The position numbers and the translations under genes were made by a program. The notes under the pieces are model-generated. The model had not been told where the DNA came from. It saw only the letters and a program-made list of their open reading frames with translations, and made no database searches. Of a DNA stretch of 64,000 nt, positions 42,217 to 54,696 are shown piece after piece. The stretch is from positions 186,001-250,000 of the forward strand of contig JAOZGC010000002.1 in assembly GCA_027491915.1 (NCBI GenBank). Direction: 5' to 3'. Numbering within the stretch: the stretch's first letter is position 1; the number at the start of each line of letters is the position of its first letter. This stretch comes from Thermoproteota archaeon (lineage in GTDB: Archaea; Korarchaeota; Korarchaeia; Korarchaeales; Korarchaeaceae).

Positions 42217-42348
42217 CTGGGGGGCGGCCGACCATCATTTAAAAAGCGGCGGGGGGCCGGCGCCCGGCGGCGCGGTGAGGAGGCGAACATCACCCTACCC
42301 GCGAGGGGATGCGGATCCCAGCTCACCCCGAGCGCCGCCGGATCCTGA

Positions 42349-43302
42349 TCACCCGCCGGGCCGGCGCCCGCACTCATCCTCCTCCACGACCCACCGGGCG
42401 GAACTCTCTATCGAGAAGGAGAACTCCCACGTGCACCTGAAACCCCGGTGCCTCGATCCGTCAGGTTTGAAGAACGAGCCGGAGGGATCCATCGGGATGA
42501 GGGTTGCGTGGATCCTCCACGTCCGCGTCACCGAACCGCCGCACTCCCACCTCGTGATCTCCGTGCTTCTCGCCGCGACCTCCAACTCCCACCCGACCTC
42601 CAGCCCCTCGGACTCCGCCTCACCGGCCAGCCTCCTCGCTTCGGACCTAGCAGCCCTCACGGCGCTCGACATGGCCCTCTCAGTTAACCTGAGGGCCCCC
42701 TCCAGGCTGGAGGCCGTGAAGCGCGAGCGATTGACCTCTCCGGCGGCCCCGCGAATGAGCCTCTCTCCCCGTAGCGCCAGGTCCCAGAGCTCGTATATCC
42801 TGATGCCGTAGACCGCGGTCCCCGACTCGTCCAACTCGGCCGACGCCATCCCCCCGGAGTGCTCGAACCTGGCGGAGACGGCCCAGTCTATCTTGACGGC
42901 CCCCCTCCCCGGCCGACCCTCTTCTCCCATGAGGAGCCGGATCTTGGAGGGAGAGACCCCTCCCCGGCCGACCTCGTACGCGGATAACCTCGCCTCCGCC
43001 CGGTTCACCCTCAATAGAATGCCCTTGACCCCGGCGAATCTCGTCATTTCCTTCTCCCACCTTCCAAGGGGAATCGAGCTCGGGGGCAGCCTGCAGGTCT
43101 TCCCGTTCTCCATCAACATCCACCTGTCCAGCCAGCTCCTGACGTAGAATATGAGTCTGGGCACCGTGGTGTTCCTCTCCAGGTACACCTCGGCGGCCTG
43201 CATCGCCGTCGGGGATACCAGCTCGGTAAAGCTTCCCGGGGCCGGGAAGAGGGCCGCGGAGGATAGTATCAGTATGCTGGCCGCGGCAGCAGCCTCCTTC
43301 AA
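42349..43302 (-). CDS. Exported protein of a five-gene pilin-like operon (fifth gene)
   Basis: A 317-residue protein with a TTG start at 43302 that overlaps the previous stop (TTGA). The N-terminus is a signal or anchor helix (AAAAASILILSSAALFPAP). The rest is extracellular-like with scattered cysteines (GKTCRLPP, RWECGG, GFRCTWEF, DECGRRPGG) and an alpha-helical Ala/Arg/Glu-rich segment (MSSAVRAARSEARRLAGEAE). No family is recognised. Because the four upstream genes encode small single-helix exported proteins, this may be the tip, adhesin or effector of the same assembly. Confidence 0.68.
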   Translation of the reverse strand: MKEAAAAASILILSSAALFPAPGSFTELVSPTAMQAAEVYLERNTTVPRLIFYVRSWLDRWMLMENGKTCRLPPSSIPLGRWEKEMTRFAGVKGILLRVNRAEARLSAYEVGRGGVSPSKIRLLMGEEGRPGRGAVKIDWAVSARFEHSGGMASAELDESGTAVYGIRIYELWDLALRGERLIRGAAGEVNRSRFTASSLEGALRLTERAMSSAVRAARSEARRLAGEAESEGLEVGWELEVAARSTEITRWECGGSVTRTWRIHATLIPMDPSGSFFKPDGSRHRGFRCTWEFSFSIESSARWVVEEDECGRRPGG

Positions 43303-43568
43303 CCCCGCGCCCTCCCCAGGTAGACCTCGCCCCAAGCCGTCGGAATGGCGAGATCCGCCTCGTCCGGCGACCTCGAGAGTCTCATCCCGGGAGGTATCCC
43401 CTGACCAAACACGACTCTGTACCCCCCTCTCCAGATGGCCCTGGAGATCTCGCCCCGAGAGGCCGCCGCCAGGAGGGCCCTCTCCGGGGCGGAGGATCTG
43501 GATCTCACCGCGCCGGCCGCCACCGCCGCGGCGGCCGCCGCCAGCGCGAGCGCCACCACCGCCCTCAA
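43299..43568 (-). CDS. Small exported protein (fourth gene of the five-gene operon)
   Basis: An 89-residue protein with TTG start overlapping the upstream stop by four bases. An N-terminal hydrophobic Ala/Val segment (VVALALAAAAAAVAAGA) is followed by a polar domain ending AWGEVYLGRARG. It is pilin-like in size and topology, but no class III cleavage site is obvious. Unknown family. Confidence 0.58.
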   Translation of the reverse strand: MRAVVALALAAAAAAVAAGAVRSRSSAPERALLAAASRGEISRAIWRGGYRVVFGQGIPPGMRLSRSPDEADLAIPTAWGEVYLGRARG

Positions 43569-43693
43569 GGTCCACCCCCCACGAGGGACTCGCTCAGTCC
43601 CGACAGGCTCACCTCGGAGTGGGACGATAGGGCGACCAGCAGCAGGAGCCAGGCCGCCACGAGGAGAAGGGCCTCGATCTCCTCCAAGGTCAT
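43565..43693 (-). CDS. 42-residue single-helix protein (third gene of the operon)
   Basis: ATG 43693 overlaps the previous stop as ATGA and its own stop overlaps the next start as TTGA, which supports a real short gene. The sequence is an acidic start (MTLEEIEALLLVA), one transmembrane helix (AWLLLLVALSS) and a short Ser/Gly tail. Single-helix subunits of this size occur in pilus, secretion and membrane complexes. A longer frame extending upstream to 43822 is not favoured because it lacks the overlap logic. Confidence 0.55.
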   Translation of the reverse strand: MTLEEIEALLLVAAWLLLLVALSSHSEVSLSGLSESLVGGGP

Positions 43694-44019
43694 CCCCCCA
43701 AGATCACCTCTTCTCCGGGTCCGTACCACCCCTCCGGGATCCGGGCCCGACACCAGGTCTGGACCTCGCAGAGGGGACGGCAGTCGATCACCAACGTGTT
43801 CCCGAAGGATCCAAGTCTGCACGGTCCCCTCGGCAGCCTAAACCTCAGAGAGATGGATCCCCTGTCGGCCACCTCGGCCAGCTCGCAGACGTCCACCCCC
43901 ATCTCCGACGCGTATCCGACGCACCTGCGCCCGACTATCACGGCCGCGGCGGCGGCCGAGGAGAAAACCATCCCCGCCATGGCCGCCGCCATCAGGTAGG
44001 CCCTCAACCCCCGAGCCAC
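43690..44019 (-). CDS. Small cysteine-containing exported protein (second gene of the operon)
   Basis: A 109-residue protein with GTG start inside the end of the first gene (16-base overlap). The N-terminus is a hydrophobic helix (YLMAAAMAGMVFSSAAAAAVI). The extracellular part has six cysteines (RRCVGY, VDVCEL, GPCRLG, IDCRPLCEVQTWC), suggesting a disulfide-stabilised domain. No family is recognised. Confidence 0.62.
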   Translation of the reverse strand: MARGLRAYLMAAAMAGMVFSSAAAAAVIVGRRCVGYASEMGVDVCELAEVADRGSISLRFRLPRGPCRLGSFGNTLVIDCRPLCEVQTWCRARIPEGWYGPGEEVILGG

Positions 44020-44384
44020 AGCCTGACCGACCCCCCTTCCCCCCTCTCGGCCCTGATCTCCACCGACCCGGAGAGTATCCCGGACTCCACCGTGATCGGG
44101 ACCCCCACGTTCAGCACCCTCGAGAATCCGCCCGAACTCAGTACGATGGATCTCCCCCCTCCCGAGACCTCAACCTCGCAGCTGAGGAAGGCCTCCGCCC
44201 TCCCGAAACCGGACGCCTCCGCCTCCGCGGCCGCCGACCTCAGGGCCGACTCGAGCGCCATGACGCACTCCCTCCTGGACTCCGCCTCGATGAGGTTCAA
44301 CTCTCCCAGGATCCTCGGGGCCGCGGCCAGCAGCACCCCAACCGACAGGAGCCCCAGGGCCGCGTACTCGACTACCTCCTCCAC
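44004..44384 (-). CDS. Pilin-like protein (first gene of the five-gene operon)
   Basis: A 126-residue protein from GTG 44384, with GTGGGGGTG ribosome site just before it. The N-terminus EEVVEYAALGLLSVGVLLAAAPRI is a long hydrophobic alpha-helix of the kind found in type IV pilins, continued by an amphipathic helix (AESRRECVMALESALRSAAAEA) and a beta-rich C-terminus (VPITVESGILSGSVEIRAERG). This layout resembles the archaeal minor pilin-like proteins encoded at 52-55 kb. The first gene of the operon; it shares an AT block with moaB. Confidence 0.65.
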   Translation of the reverse strand: MEEVVEYAALGLLSVGVLLAAAPRILGELNLIEAESRRECVMALESALRSAAAEAEASGFGRAEAFLSCEVEVSGGGRSIVLSSGGFSRVLNVGVPITVESGILSGSVEIRAERGEGGSVRLWLGG

Positions 44385-44426: not shown

Positions 44427-44437
44427 AAAAAGTAATA
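44427..44437. promoter_or_regulatory. Shared AT block between moaB and the five-gene operon
   Basis: AAAAAGTAATA is centred near 44432. It is 29 bases from the moaB GTG at 44461, predicting a leaderless moaB transcript. On the minus strand it predicts a start near 44406, leaving a 20-base leader with a ribosome site for GTG 44384. Confidence 0.5.
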
Positions 44438-44460: not shown

Positions 44461-45003
44461 GTGCCCTCCACGGTTGAGGATCACCGAGAGAGATCGAAGA
44501 CCACCCTCAGGTTTGCCGTGGTGACCGTGAGCTCCTCCAGGGCCGCGGGTCGACCCGAGCCGGATGTGTCTGGGAGCCTCGCGGAGAGGTTGATCCGGGA
44601 GGCCGGCCACGAGGTGTCCGTGAGGGCCGTGGTGCCCGACTCCGTGGTGGCGATCAGGAGGACCGTCTCCCTCTGCGCCTCCGAGTCGGACGTGGTCCTC
44701 CTACTGGGGGGGACCGGGATTCACCCCCAGGACGTCACCCCGGAGGCCTGCAGATCCCTGTTCTCTGTGGAGATGCCGGGATTCGGCGAGATCTTCAGGA
44801 CGATCAGCTTCGAGGAGGTGGGATCCGCGGCCTTCCTGAGCAGGGCGTGCGCCGGGAGGATCGGGGGGTCGGTGGTGTTCTGCCTTCCGGGATCCCCGGG
44901 GGCGGTGGAGGTGGCCCTCAGGAGGCTGATAATCCCCGAGGCGGCCCACGCCGTGTGGACCGCCCGGGGCTACTCCAAGGTGAGGTCCAGGCCCGGGGGG
45001 TAG
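44461..45003 (+). CDS. moaB: MoaB/MogA-family molybdopterin adenylyltransferase
   Basis: A 180-residue MoaB-fold protein that activates molybdopterin by adenylylation. The LRFAVVTVSSSRA start of the fold, VVLLLGGTGIHPQDVTPEA and FCLPGSPGAVEVALR are diagnostic. I choose GTG 44461 because it lies 29 bases after an AT block; longer upstream extension in the same frame runs antisense through the five-gene operon and is not coding. Its end overlaps the convergent moeA fusion gene by 34 bases. Confidence 0.9.
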   Translation: MPSTVEDHRERSKTTLRFAVVTVSSSRAAGRPEPDVSGSLAERLIREAGHEVSVRAVVPDSVVAIRRTVSLCASESDVVLLLGGTGIHPQDVTPEACRSLFSVEMPGFGEIFRTISFEEVGSAAFLSRACAGRIGGSVVFCLPGSPGAVEVALRRLIIPEAAHAVWTARGYSKVRSRPGG

Positions 45004-46961
45004 ATCACCCGACCGGTCTCGGGCCCCACCTCCATACCCGGCAGGGACTCCAGCGCCTCGGCGAACTTCCCAGACCTCAGGATCCTGATGGCGGCCCTCA
45101 CGCCCTCCTTACCCAGCCTGTCCCTCCTGACCAGCAGGTCGTACCACTCCTCGGCCAGGGGGATGAAGTCCAGTCCGTAGGCCGCGGCAGCCGCCTCTAT
45201 CCCCACGCCAACGTCGGCCAAGCCGGCCCTCACCGCGGCCGCCACGGCCCCGTGGGACTTGGCCCCGGTGGTGTATCCCCTTATAGCGGAGGCGGCGCGC
45301 TCCGAGTCTACCCCCTCCATCTCCAGCAGCCGATCCAGGAGCATCCTGGTGCCGGACCCGGGGTTCCGGTTGATCATGGTCAGGTCCCCCCTGAGCAGGT
45401 CTCCTATCCCACCGACGCCCTTGGGGTTTCCCGGAGGGACCATGAGGCCCTGTCTCCTCTTGTAACCCCTGACTAGTATGGCCTTGTCCTTCAATCCGTA
45501 TCTCCCGATGTAGGGGACGTTGTACTCCCCCGTCTCCGGGTCCAGCGCGTGGACCCCCGCCAGGTCGGCCTCCCCCCTCCTCACCGCCGAGAAACCCCCC
45601 GTCGTCCCGACCGCCACGAACTTGACCTTCATCCCGGTTTCAGACCTGAGGATGTAGATCAGCCTCTCCAGCCCGATGCAGTGGCTGCCCACGACGCTGA
45701 GATCGGCCACCCGGATCCCTGGAGAAAACAGCCTGACGGTGATCCTGCTTCCCTCCCCGAGGAAACTGATCCCCTCCCTCTTCTCCACGAACCCGTCGGC
45801 CCTCGCCAGGGTCGATATGGCCTCGGATCCCGTGGGGACCGGGAAGGCCAGGAACCCCCCATCCGAGTCCCTCACCAGGTGGACCGGCAGGAAGCCGCGC
45901 CTTCCCACGTCCCCCTCTATCCTCTCGGCGGCCGTCGCCTCCACCTCGCCTCCCGGCGGGGACTCGCCGAGGCCGGCCATCCTCCTGACCGCCAGAGAGG
46001 CCAGCAGCCTGTAGGCCGTTAGCGAGCTGGTCGGGTTGCCCGGCAGCCCGAATATGAGCTTCCCCCGGGCGGCTCCGACGACGGTGGGCTTGCCCGGCTG
46101 GATGGCCACCCCGTGTATCAGGATCCCCGGGGGACCCAGCCTGTCCACGACCCTGTACATGACGTCTCCGGCCCCGGCGCTGGTGCTCCCGGAGAATATC
46201 ACCAGGTCGGCGACCTCCAGCCCCCTCCGGACGGCCCCCTCTATCTCCTCTTCGTCGTCCGGCACTATGCCGAGGTCGATGGGCACCCCTCCATCCCTCC
46301 TGACGGCCGCCGATATGACGTACCTGTTCACGTCCCTTATCTGGCCGTACTCGAGCTCCTCCCAGGGCTCCCTCAGCTCGTCTCCCGTGCTCCCGACGGC
46401 CACCCTGGGTTTGGCGAAGACCCTAACCCTCCTCCTCCCAGAGGCGGCCAGGATCCCCACCTCAGCCGGGCCGAGGAGGGAGCCGGCCGTCAGCACGGTC
46501 TCTCCCACCCTCACGTCCCCGCCGGCGGACTGAACGTTCTCCCCCGGGGTGACAGATCGATACACCATGAGCTCATCTCCCAACCTGTGGGTCCTCTCCA
46601 CCATGACGACGGCGTCAGCGCCCCGGGGGATGGGCGCCCCCGTGGCTATCTCCACGGCCTCGCCCTCTCCGACCTCTCCGAGATAGGGGTGCCCGGCGCT
46701 CGCCCTCCCAATCACCCTGAGGGAGATCGGCCTGTCCTCGTCGGCCCCGTAGGTGTCGGCTGCCCTCACGGCGAACCCGTCCTTGGTGGACCTGTCGAAG
46801 GGCGGGACGTCCACCTCGGAGTAGACGTCCTCGGCGAGCGCCCTCCCCAGCACCCCATCCAGGCTCACCTCTTCCACCTTCGGCTCGGGGACGTTCTCCC
46901 TGATGATCGCGATGGCCTCCTCCAGGGAGGCCAACCTCCTGTAGACCCTCCTCCCGCCCAC
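44970..46961 (-). CDS. moeA: MoeA fused to a periplasmic-binding-protein-like domain
   Basis: A 663-residue two-part protein. Residues 1-405 are MoeA, the molybdenum/tungsten insertase (PPFDRSTKDGFAVRAADTYG, IATGAPIPRGADAVVMVE, FSGSTSAGAGDVMYRVVD, IFGLPGNPTSSL). Residues about 415-663 are a substrate-binding-like domain (VVGSHCIGLERLIYIL, FVAVGTTGGFSAVRRGEADLAG, NRNPGSGTRMLLDRLLEM, ADVGVGIEAAAAAYGLDF). The fusion is known in archaea and may bind oxyanion or cofactor directly. A second, unfused MoeA gene lies 13 bases upstream, so the cell has two insertases in one operon, possibly one for Mo and one for W. Confidence 0.93.
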   Translation of the reverse strand: MGGRRVYRRLASLEEAIAIIRENVPEPKVEEVSLDGVLGRALAEDVYSEVDVPPFDRSTKDGFAVRAADTYGADEDRPISLRVIGRASAGHPYLGEVGEGEAVEIATGAPIPRGADAVVMVERTHRLGDELMVYRSVTPGENVQSAGGDVRVGETVLTAGSLLGPAEVGILAASGRRRVRVFAKPRVAVGSTGDELREPWEELEYGQIRDVNRYVISAAVRRDGGVPIDLGIVPDDEEEIEGAVRRGLEVADLVIFSGSTSAGAGDVMYRVVDRLGPPGILIHGVAIQPGKPTVVGAARGKLIFGLPGNPTSSLTAYRLLASLAVRRMAGLGESPPGGEVEATAAERIEGDVGRRGFLPVHLVRDSDGGFLAFPVPTGSEAISTLARADGFVEKREGISFLGEGSRITVRLFSPGIRVADLSVVGSHCIGLERLIYILRSETGMKVKFVAVGTTGGFSAVRRGEADLAGVHALDPETGEYNVPYIGRYGLKDKAILVRGYKRRQGLMVPPGNPKGVGGIGDLLRGDLTMINRNPGSGTRMLLDRLLEMEGVDSERAASAIRGYTTGAKSHGAVAAAVRAGLADVGVGIEAAAAAYGLDFIPLAEEWYDLLVRRDRLGKEGVRAAIRILRSGKFAEALESLPGMEVGPETGRVIYPPGLDLTLE

Positions 46962-46974
46962 CCGGCCTCCCCCC

Positions 46975-48282
46975 TCAGGGCGACGGCAGCCCCTGGATCT
47001 CGAGGCGAGTATACCTCCTGAGCAGCAGGGCGTCGACGGTGGATCCTGCGGGGAGGCCCTCCACGTCTCCCGGAACCACCACCACGGCGTCCGCGGCCGT
47101 CAGGGATGAGAGTATCCCGGAACCGGAGACCCTGACCGGATCGGCCCAGATCCCACCCCCCTCGTCGGCGCTCAACCTCACCCGGACGAAGTGGGTCATC
47201 CCGACCCTGGTGGTCACGGGGCGCGTCAGGCGCGCCTCCACGACCGCCGGCGCCGGCCTACCGGAGACGCCCCTGAGCCTGTCCAGGGTCGGCCCGACGA
47301 ACAGCCAGAGGTCGACGGCGGCCGCCACGGGATATCCTGGGAGGGCTATGAGGGGGCGGCCGCGCGGGAGCCTGGCCAGCAGGACCGGCCGCCCGGGCAT
47401 CGCGGCCACGCCGTGGACCAGCACTTCTCCCCCAATCTCCTCCACCGCCCTGAAGATCAGGTCTCCCCTCCCCACGCTGGTTCCCCCGGTGGTCAGGATC
47501 ACCTCGTGACCGTCCTCGGCCGACTCCAGGATCTTGGCTATCTCCCCCGGATCGTCCCCTACCATCCCCAGGTAATCGAGATCCGCCCCCCTCTCCCTCA
47601 CCCAAGATCCCACCAGATACCTCAGGGAGTTGGGGACCTTCCCGGGGACCCAATCCCCCCCCACCTCGAATATCTCGTCTCCGGTGCAGATTAGCGCCGC
47701 CCTGGGCCGGAGGTAGACTTCCACGGAGTCCACGTTGAGCTGGGCGAGCAGGCCCAGCTCGTATGGGCCCAGGACCCTCCCCCCCTCAAGGACGACGCTT
47801 CCCCTCTCCACGTCCTCCCCGGGCCTGGCCACGTTGGCCCAGGGGGGGACCTGGGAGTACACCTCGACAGCGCCTCCCACCTCCTCCGCCTGCTCCACCG
47901 GAACCACCGCGTCGCACCACTCAGGCAGGTAGGCCCCTGTGTATATCCTGATGGCCCCCATCTTCCCCCCATCTCCGGATCGGCGCGGAATCTCCCCCGG
48001 TCTGACCTCCCCCTCCAGCCTCAGGATCACGGGGGCCTGCCTGGAGGCCCCGTACGTGTTCGCCGCCCTGACCGCGTACCCGTCCATGGCGGCCCTAGGC
48101 GCGGGTGGTACTTCTACCGGAGACCTGAGGTCTCCGGCGAGCACCCTGCCGAGGGCCAGTTCCAGCGGGACCACCTCTCTCCCCCTCGGGGAGAGATCGA
48201 ACTCGGAGGAGAATCTCTCCCAGGCCTCTTCTATACCCATCAGCTCGCCGAACCCCCTCCACACGTGGCCCAGGGCGATCAC
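46975..48282 (-). CDS. moeA: MoeA molybdopterin molybdenumtransferase
   Basis: A MoeA insertase of 435 residues counted from GTG 48282. Key blocks are PPAPRAAMDGYAVRAANTYG, TGAYLPEWCDAVVPVEQ, TTGGTSVGRGDLIFRAVEE, HGVAAMPGRPVLLA and IALPGYPVAAAVDL. The start is uncertain: GTG 48282 is 28 bases from the palindromic TATA block, GTG 48264 also fits the VWRGFGELMGIEEAW beginning, and ATG 48240 would remove 14 residues. It forms an operon with the MoeA-PBP fusion and is divergent from the DUF364 gene. Confidence 0.93.
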   Translation of the reverse strand: MIALGHVWRGFGELMGIEEAWERFSSEFDLSPRGREVVPLELALGRVLAGDLRSPVEVPPAPRAAMDGYAVRAANTYGASRQAPVILRLEGEVRPGEIPRRSGDGGKMGAIRIYTGAYLPEWCDAVVPVEQAEEVGGAVEVYSQVPPWANVARPGEDVERGSVVLEGGRVLGPYELGLLAQLNVDSVEVYLRPRAALICTGDEIFEVGGDWVPGKVPNSLRYLVGSWVRERGADLDYLGMVGDDPGEIAKILESAEDGHEVILTTGGTSVGRGDLIFRAVEEIGGEVLVHGVAAMPGRPVLLARLPRGRPLIALPGYPVAAAVDLWLFVGPTLDRLRGVSGRPAPAVVEARLTRPVTTRVGMTHFVRVRLSADEGGGIWADPVRVSGSGILSSLTAADAVVVVPGDVEGLPAGSTVDALLLRRYTRLEIQGLPSP

Positions 48283-48302
48283 CCGCCGCCCGCCCGATCC
48301 CC

Positions 48303-48317
48303 CCGATTTTAAATCGG
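48303..48317. promoter_or_regulatory. Palindromic TATA block shared by moeA and DUF364
   Basis: CCGATTTTAAATCGG is a perfect odd-length palindrome centred on 48310. It is 28 bases from the moeA GTG (48282) and 27 bases from the DUF364 GTG (48337). One element can therefore drive two leaderless transcripts in opposite directions. Confidence 0.65.
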
Positions 48318-48336
48318 TCGCCCCGGACCAGTCCCC

Positions 48337-49077
48337 GTGGGCGGCACCCTGCTCGAGATCCTGTCGGAGGTAGCCGCGGAGACCTCGGGGGAGGCCGTCG
48401 CGTCGGAGGTTATCGTGAGCTTCCCATACACCGGCGTCCTGTCGGAGTCCGGGCTTGGGGTCTCTCCCACCATCCTGGAGCCCCCCAGATCCTTGAGCAT
48501 CGAGCCCGGAACCGCGTCGGGCAGGCCGCTGGGGGACCTGCTTAGACTGGCCTCCTCCCCCCTGGGGATGGACTCCTCCCTGGCCCTGGCGGCCGTTAAC
48601 TCTGCGATCCAGCCGCCTCCCGAGGCCGAGCCCCTCGACGCGCTGGAGGCCGTGGGCCTGAACCCTTCGGACGAGGTCTGCGTCATAGGAGGCTTCCCCG
48701 AGGATTACCTGGCAGCGGCGAGGAGGAGGTGTCGGAGGCTGTGGGTCTTCGAGAGGCCTCCGAGGATGAGGAGGGATACCCTGCCCGACTGGGCCGAGGA
48801 GATGCTGGTCCCGAGGTGCACCGTCCTCCTCGCCACCGGGCTGACGGTCGCCAACAGGACCATAGACAGGCTTATCGAGCTCGCGTCCAACGCCAGGGAG
48901 GTGGCCCTGATCGGCCCGAGTGTCCCCATGCACCCGGACTCCCTGAGGGAGGCGGGTATCACGGTCGCCGCGGGCGCGAGGTTCACGGACCCCCGCGGGG
49001 CCGCGGTCGCCGTGAGGGAGGGAGGGGGCACCCCCTCCCTGAGGAGGTTCTCCGAGAAGGTGGTTCTGAGGCTGTAA
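48337..49077 (+). CDS. DUF364 family protein (putative heavy-metal chelation)
   Basis: A 246-residue protein with the DUF364 two-part layout: an N-terminal enolase-N-like segment (SGRPLGDLLRLASSPLGMDSSL, LAAVNSAI) and a Rossmann-like C-terminal half (DEVCVIGGFPEDYLAAAR, VLLATGLTVANRTIDRLIELA, VALIGPSVPMHPDSLREAG). The family is proposed to bind metals and often neighbours molybdenum/tungsten genes, as here. GTG 48337 is 27 bases from a TATA block, so it is probably leaderless. Its end is four bases from the convergent pilus platform gene. Confidence 0.82.
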   Translation: MGGTLLEILSEVAAETSGEAVASEVIVSFPYTGVLSESGLGVSPTILEPPRSLSIEPGTASGRPLGDLLRLASSPLGMDSSLALAAVNSAIQPPPEAEPLDALEAVGLNPSDEVCVIGGFPEDYLAAARRRCRRLWVFERPPRMRRDTLPDWAEEMLVPRCTVLLATGLTVANRTIDRLIELASNAREVALIGPSVPMHPDSLREAGITVAAGARFTDPRGAAVAVREGGGTPSLRRFSEKVVLRL

Positions 49078-53680: not shown

Positions 53681-54205
53681 TCACCCCCCGAACAGGGTCA
53701 CCTCCGCCCTGTAGAGTCCCTCCCCCATGGTGTTCCCGTTCACGGTCGCGTCCCCGGCCAGGTAGACGTACACCTTCTGTCCCACGGCGAACCCCCTGGT
53801 AACCTTCGATCCGAGGATCAGGGACGCCCTCCGGGAGAACTCCCCGGACGACTCGTTGAACCGGTAGAAGGACACCCTCACGTCCAGCCCCCCGGTGGGT
53901 AGGGCCGACTTGAACTGGCCGTAGGTCATGTTGGCCGCCCGCTCCAGCTTGACTGGGTCCACCACGTAGGGCCATATTATCGAGTAGTTGACGCCCTCGT
54001 CCACCAGGGCTAGGCCGACCCTCATCTCCGTGGAGTTCCAGTTGCCAGGTCCCTCGAACACCTGCGCGACCACCAGGCTGGCCGTCTCCTGCATGGCCCT
54101 GGGATTCCTGACCGCCTGGCCCTGCATGATCGACATCGCGAAGGCCCCGAACACGAGCACCGGTATGAGGGATGCCAGAAATGCCACGGCCTTCCTCGTC
54201 CCCAC
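53681..54205 (-). CDS. Exported pilus-locus protein
   Basis: A 174-residue protein with an N-terminal hydrophobic helix (AVAFLASLIPVLVFGAFAMSI) after a short basic start, and a mixed extracellular part with sequons, ending VYLAGDATVNG...RAEVTLFGG. Starts with GTG overlapping the previous stop as TAGTG. A minor pilin-like role is inferred from position and topology. Confidence 0.72.
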   Translation of the reverse strand: MGTRKAVAFLASLIPVLVFGAFAMSIMQGQAVRNPRAMQETASLVVAQVFEGPGNWNSTEMRVGLALVDEGVNYSIIWPYVVDPVKLERAANMTYGQFKSALPTGGLDVRVSFYRFNESSGEFSRRASLILGSKVTRGFAVGQKVYVYLAGDATVNGNTMGEGLYRAEVTLFGG

Positions 54206-54696
54206 TACCCCCCGAATGTTATAGATATCGTCATATTACCTTTGTTCTCTATCCTGACCGGGACCTGCTCCCCGGACGGGGCCAGGCCGCTGACCAATAT
54301 CCTCCAGCTCCCGACGGCCGCTATCCTGAACAAGACGGCGTTCCCGGTCGCTGACTGATTCAGCACGCTCACCGCCCCCCTGGCGAGCGTCATGGTGCCT
54401 ACGGCCTCCGGCGGGTTGTAGAGCACTATCTCCAGGGACCTGTTCTCCCAGGGGCCGGATCCCCCTCTCATTACCACCTCTGAGGGGACGTTGACCCCCA
54501 GGGTGGTCATGAACCCGCTCCCCGACAGGGCCGCGCTCTCGAGGGCCTCGTGTATCTCGAAGGCCACGTTCTTGGCCTGGGAATACCTGGCCTCCCTGGT
54601 CTTCTCCTCTATCATGGGGTAGACTATCGAGTAACCCAGCAGGATTATCGCCAGTCCCAGCACGATCATTACGGCGGCCTCGACGCTGGCCTCCAA
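54205..54696 (-). CDS. Pilin-like protein of the pilus locus
   Basis: A 163-residue protein starting MEASVEAAVMIVLGLAIILLG, a hydrophobic N-terminal helix leading into an amphipathic helix (MIEEKTREARYSQAKNVAFEI) and a beta-rich domain ending IENKGNMTISITFGG. The two-helix start is typical of archaeal minor pilins and of the protein at 44004. It is the first gene of the tight downstream block 54696-49082, separated from the upstream pilin by a terminator. Confidence 0.74.
   Translation of the reverse strand: MEASVEAAVMIVLGLAIILLGYSIVYPMIEEKTREARYSQAKNVAFEIHEALESAALSGSGFMTTLGVNVPSEVVMRGGSGPWENRSLEIVLYNPPEAVGTMTLARGAVSVLNQSATGNAVLFRIAAVGSWRILVSGLAPSGEQVPVRIENKGNMTISITFGG

Follow-up and report, generated by a model that had tools for sequence, protein, structure and literature searches.

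Five intact minus-strand genes, here called A to E, lie head to tail at positions 42349-44384 of the window, by which is meant the whole stretch of 64,000 nucleotides that was analysed (G000:C4:186001-250000), taken from an archaeal genome of 1.12 Mb that is 91% complete. Consecutive genes overlap throughout, A and B by 16 bases and the remaining pairs by 4 bases each (ATGA for B/C, TTGA for C/D and for D/E), and a single hydrophobic stretch stands at the N-terminus of each of the five proteins (mean KD 1.7-2.4 over 19 residues). An earlier note on this DNA had described such a chain, and its coordinates, strand, lengths, junctions and single N-terminal hydrophobic helices were all found to be as claimed. 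The note had also recognised no family for any of the five; this was borne out, as Pfam gave no match at E<0.01 and NCBIfam no meaningful match, and scans of both collections with the five proteins and with the alignments of A and E returned nothing above noise. The genes are listed in the Table together with parts of two pilus machines, namely System I, encoded by the operon at 49-58 kb of the window, and System II, the name used here for the machine with a divergent clade of pilus ATPases that is linked to A-E in relatives.

Table. Coordinates of A-E and of related features (window positions unless a contig is given)
Feature	Position	Strand	Description
Gene A	44004-44384	-	126 aa, GTG start; leaderless pilin homologue on profile comparison, with a predicted long N-terminal helix and antiparallel beta sheet
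Gene B	43690-44019	-	109 aa, six Cys; exported, with one helix; probably a distant relative of A
Gene C	43565-43693	-	42 aa, ATG start; single-helix micro-protein
Gene D	43299-43568	-	89 aa, TTG start; small single-helix exported protein
Gene E	42349-43302	-	317 aa, TTG start; membrane-anchored, alpha/beta outer domain; universal single-copy marker of A-E
TATA-like stretch TATTACTTTTT	44427-44437	-	upstream of gene A; possible A-E promoter, read from the sequence without a statistical test
Pilin-like gene of the separate System I operon	54205-54696	-	A homologue outside the A-E set; orthologues in L188, L190 and L191
System II core of the window genome	G000:C4:65157-68310 (locus L021)		ATPase, two overlapping platform halves, A24-type peptidase, 91-aa pilin

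Upstream of A-E, in divergent orientation, lies a gene for a molybdopterin-binding protein (44497-45003, PF00994), and beyond it are MoeA genes, one of which (44970-46961) is fused with a periplasmic-binding-protein-like domain (PF12727). Molybdenum-cofactor genes adjoin A-E both in the window (molybdopterin-binding gene and MoeA, 44497-48933) and in genus g5 (MoaA and MoaC; L172 1378-2776, L173 5019-6381). At the other end of the set the stretch CTTTTTAAAT (42237-42246) resembles a TATA box placed approximately 25 bases upstream of the ATG of the next gene (42216), as for a leaderless transcript. If this element serves the next gene, A-E would be a separate transcription unit.

Conservation of A-E in the phylum

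Gene E was found as a single copy by profile search in all 21 genomes of the phylum, very probably Korarchaeota, that are at least 80% complete, and in 26 of 29 once less complete genomes were included, the three that lack it being 63-78% complete. Beyond the phylum just three weak matches to the E profile were obtained from 365 archaeal genomes. Those in G314 (3.5e-4) and G175 (0.009) were not accepted as homologues, and no pilus genes were found at the G314 locus. Thirteen loci from five family-level groups were read gene by gene, and the order A-B-C-D-E was seen in every one of them, with junctions that overlap or nearly touch. B and D keep their position in all 13 and a single-helix gene of 27-85 aa (C) sits between them in 12, gene C not being identified in the G003 locus. 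This arrangement is far beyond chance. Loss of the cluster from close relatives had been named in the earlier note as an observation that would speak against its reading; A-E proved to be universal in the phylum. In pairs of close relatives dN/dS is between 0.13 and 0.44 for A, B, D and E; for C it is 0.19 in one close pair, the other pair being uninformative for that gene.

In genera g4 and g5 the set is extended behind E by a sixth gene (L020 7827-8120, L173 8323-8667, L174 1459-1755), which encodes an exported protein of 97-114 aa with two hydrophobic helices and a VirB2/TrbC-like topology. It belongs to no Pfam family and is absent after E in the window.

Gene A and its companions

The proposal in the earlier note that the first gene is pilin-like gained support from both profile comparison and modelling. 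The A profile aligns with the System I gene at 54205-54696 and its orthologues over 76 columns (94.7%, E 6e-8), and control families, the platform family among them, scored below 1% against it. When an HMM of A was built without a 131-aa gene of G038 that lies close to the System II-like ATPase there, it recovered that gene at 4e-8; its matches also include three genes of System I (1e-5 to 4e-4). The alignment of A with the System II pilin is weaker and runs along the helix (73%, E 3e-5; 65% with sub-sets). The AlphaFold model of A consists of a continuous helix (residues 2-58) and an antiparallel sheet (pLDDT 91.9). Judged by these sequence comparisons, A is a pilin homologue. A search of the PDB with the A sequence profile yielded nothing sensible, and comparison of the model with solved structures (Foldseek) gave no match with E<1e-3, no solved pilin being significant; the predicted pilin fold of A is founded on layout and homology, not on a match to a solved structure.

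No class III leader was seen on any A sequence examined. In most genomes the start codon of A lies just a few residues ahead of the hydrophobic core, and in 7 of 13 the frame upstream is closed by a stop within 0-5 codons, which makes a class III leader impossible for A in those seven genomes. A single upstream GTG in the window would lengthen A by 29 residues, yet the TATA-like stretch at 44437-44427 lies between this GTG and gene A. Near its residue 6 A carries a glutamate (e.g. MEEVVE, MILSIE) at the place where processed System II pilins have theirs (VTQTVE).

Gene B is a probable relative of A by sequence, the two profiles aligning over 77 columns (hhalign, 57%, p 1e-4). D has a possible short prepilin-type start, [KR][GA], in three loci (L015, L032, L035). 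The AlphaFold model of E (pLDDT 85.9, pTM 0.74) combines an anchoring helix with another long helix and an outer domain of alpha/beta type, and residues R55, D59, G134 and D272 are invariant in the E alignment. Neither the E profile searched against the PDB by sequence, which gave nothing sensible, nor the E model (Foldseek, no match with E<1e-3) found a relative there, and an internal duplication of E received no support from profiles. The 487-498 aa proteins of G295 and G040, from another phylum (L170, L175), were considered as possible counterparts of E on the strength of a suggestive place and motif but are not counted as such (hhalign 12.6% against 11% for controls; HMM E 0.009). The same two loci hold a similar but unrelated-looking pilin-like set with clear class III starts, which adjoins a fused platform gene and an ATPase of 707-742 aa.

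Two pilus machines and the probable partner of A-E

The earlier note had suggested that the five proteins form a surface complex that uses the ATPase, platform and peptidase encoded 5-15 kb away. The tie to a pilus machine was upheld, the choice of that particular machine was not. The operon at 49-58 kb is a machine separate from System II: in the ATPase tree the System I ATPase, at 50.7 kb, falls in a clade of its own (support 100/100), and the System II ATPases form one deep clade (100/99). A scan of named genomes with the ATPase returned a few phylum genomes and then mostly bacterial ATPases. It is the System II clade that A-E adjoins in relatives. E lies within 5 kb of a System II ATPase in 11 of 26 genomes, and near a System I ATPase in the window genome only. 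In G026 and G027 (L033, L034) the ATPase, two platform genes and A-B-C-D-E are all on one strand, and in G028 and G024 (L035, L032) ATPase, platform and an A24 prepilin peptidase are followed by A-B-C-D-E, so that in two families the set comes directly after genes of all three kinds. The System II ATPase is 1.8-2.5 kb from E, in some cases on the opposite strand, in G001/G005, G006, G003/G007 and G009/G011. In G008 a short System II pilin adjoins A-E, with the ATPase on another contig, and in about half of the phylum genomes A-E and System II are far apart or on different contigs.

The full System II core is present in the window genome. Its ATPase (L021 8158-9570) matches PF00437 (T2SSE, E 1.8e-13). 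For the platform halves Pfam gives no direct match in most genomes, that of the window included; they are connected through genes of G026-G028 to a gene of G038 that passes the T2SSF cut-off (profiles: 96.6%, E 6e-10; 89.5%). The peptidase (G000:C4:67626-67892, 124 aa) gives a weak A24 match (E 0.002), and matches above the cut-off were obtained for the System II loci of G005, G006 and G028. G000, G005, G006, G024, G025 and G028 have a dedicated peptidase in their System II locus, and none was found in the loci of g4, G026 and G027. The short pilin, which in the window genome starts ...RDERG/VTEVLDEALLVALG..., has a weak match to Flp_Fap (E 0.019). Of the features by which members of the type IV filament superfamily (archaeal T4P) are recognised, System II has the secretion ATPase, the platform and the A24 peptidase. 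With this core in the window genome, the lack of an ATPase beside A-E is a local displacement. The remark in the earlier note that the group has no ATPase of its own holds locally but not for the genome, in which the cognate System II ATPase is found approximately 160 kb away; just A-E has been displaced, by that distance, and now lies no more than 8 kb from the System I ATPase. A sister of System II was observed in G038, a member of another phylum (L036 7400-12852), with an ATPase, a split platform, a 61-aa pilin and a MinD-like ATPase; an A homologue is present there and no B-E were recognised.

Because the order of the set is constant in 13 of 13 loci, E occurs in 21 of 21 genomes, A-E is linked to the System II ATPase in relatives and A is homologous to pilins, A-E is assigned to System II, probably as the minor-pilin and envelope-assembly set of this divergent archaeal type IV filament machine. 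Counting against the assignment are the absence of linkage between A-E and System II in the window genome and the proximity there to the System I ATPase, the separation of A-E from System II in about half of the phylum genomes, and the lack of a significant structural match for A among solved pilins and for E in general; B, D and E, moreover, showed no homology to known pilus parts. That A-E instead serves the System I machine at 49-58 kb would fit the distance of just approximately 8 kb between the two in the window genome, the homology of A to the System I pilin-like gene and a passage in the literature (PMC6491452) counted for this reading. It is an unlikely explanation, given that the System I ATPase, platform and peptidase recur together with a pilin-like set of their own, kept alongside in relatives (L188, L190, L191), that E is near the System I ATPase in no other genome as against 11 near that of System II, and that a System II core exists in the window genome. 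The set might conceivably be shared by both machines. It is very improbable that A-E is a membrane complex unrelated to pili whose position near pilus genes is fortuitous. In many genomes A-E is indeed unlinked to pilus genes, and its neighbours in the window and in genus g5 are molybdenum-cofactor genes, but the operon with ATPase, platform and peptidase recurs in deeply separated families, and A is a pilin homologue.

If A-E does belong to System II, its products may act within the filament or beside it. FlaF and FlaG are single-helix beta proteins without a class III leader, and A resembles them in having a single N-terminal helix, no such leader and an outer beta domain. The possibility that A-E is an envelope stator or anchor of System II comparable to FlaF and FlaG of the archaellum, and not a set of minor pilins in the filament, is accordingly a substantial one, though the less favoured; the sizeable outer domain of E agrees with it as well. 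The alignment of A with System II pilins along the helix and its pilin-like glutamate point the other way, and FlaF/FlaG appeared in the fold search with A only at E 1.7, which is not significant. Between a minor-pilin or priming role and a stator or anchor role, which agrees with the missing leader about equally, we lean modestly towards the former. In the minor-pilin reading A, and probably B, would be pilin-like subunits whose first residues correspond to the start of a mature, cleaved pilin. They would be accompanied by the micro-protein C, by D, which is small and exported, and by E, which would be anchored by one helix and carry a larger domain outside. An orientation with the N-terminus on the inner side of the membrane and the remainder outside is expected for all five, and together they would probably build a single envelope complex at the platform of System II, where it would start or anchor the filament. 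The System II ATPase would polymerise this filament from the short Flp-like pilin after its cleavage by the System II A24 peptidase.

The short pilin of System II itself occurs in two forms. It is leadered (RG/V start) in G000, G005, G006 and G008 and, by genus, in g1, g2, g3 and g5, and in genus g4 it has no leader and starts MxxTxETILL (L016 8166-8402, L018 11289-11516, L025 11451-11720 and L026 6526-6789; compare L021 11036-11311). The two forms are homologous (96.2%, E 2e-9). The g4 protein is a putative major pilin that starts at the mature position. Genera g1, g2 and g3 have a dedicated A24 peptidase at System II, and none was found there in g4; G008 is an exception in that it has a leadered pilin and a single peptidase elsewhere. 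A System II filament built at least partly from leaderless pilins that need no prepilin peptidase is a speculative proposal, which we consider rather doubtful.

Comparison with known systems

System II and A-E share with archaeal type IV pili, as described in sections of Makarova et al. (2016; PMC4858521), a secretion ATPase, a TadC-like platform, an A24 peptidase, a short pilin and small exported proteins with one helix, which several families encode in a single operon. They differ in that the System II ATPases form their own deep clade, A-E fall in no described family, and a class III leader is missing from A. The same source (Makarova, Koonin and Albers, 2016) predicted that TACK archaea have uncharacterised minor-pilin sets and that pilin sets and motors are mixed, and the korarchaeal set is not described in the sections mentioned. 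With respect to those sections, A-E with System II is best classed as a variant of archaeal type IV pili not previously described. Conserved minor pilins initiate the assembly of bacterial type IV filaments, at whose tip they are located (PMC10191384).

Resemblances to the Tad (T4cP, Flp) pilus are a short major pilin with an RG/VT..E start, platform genes that are split, a MinD-like ATPase in the neighbourhood of some loci, and accessory genes that follow the platform with the largest last. Membership of the Tad family was rejected: A, B, D and E all scored below 1% against TadE, TadF and TadG (hhalign), and the System II ATPases fall outside the TadA clade, Tad being separate (100/100) among other archaeal ATPases. 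A plasmid collection yielded only bacterial Tad loci, which served as controls. No match of A-E to FlaF or FlaG was found by sequence, the best structural one being the E value of 1.7 given above. Among haloarchaeal families, one E orthologue reached DUF7261 below threshold (E 0.032) and an A-like gene of another archaeal lineage reached DUF7266 (E 0.21), both far below the curated cut-offs; no window protein passes the Pfam cut-off for either, and DUF7261 was present in none of the phylum genomes searched. PF23947, taken up as a further haloarchaeal comparison, is DUF7281 and irrelevant.

The analysis offers a class of function for five families that are unnamed in Pfam and NCBIfam yet universal in a deep archaeal phylum, and connects these families with a second pilus machine, a very divergent one. 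It also illustrates that a motor gene can be the closest one without being the partner, since comparison among relatives pointed to a motor approximately 160 kb away. Finally, the leaderless pilin homologues would make it possible to test the idea of filament subunits that escape prepilin processing.
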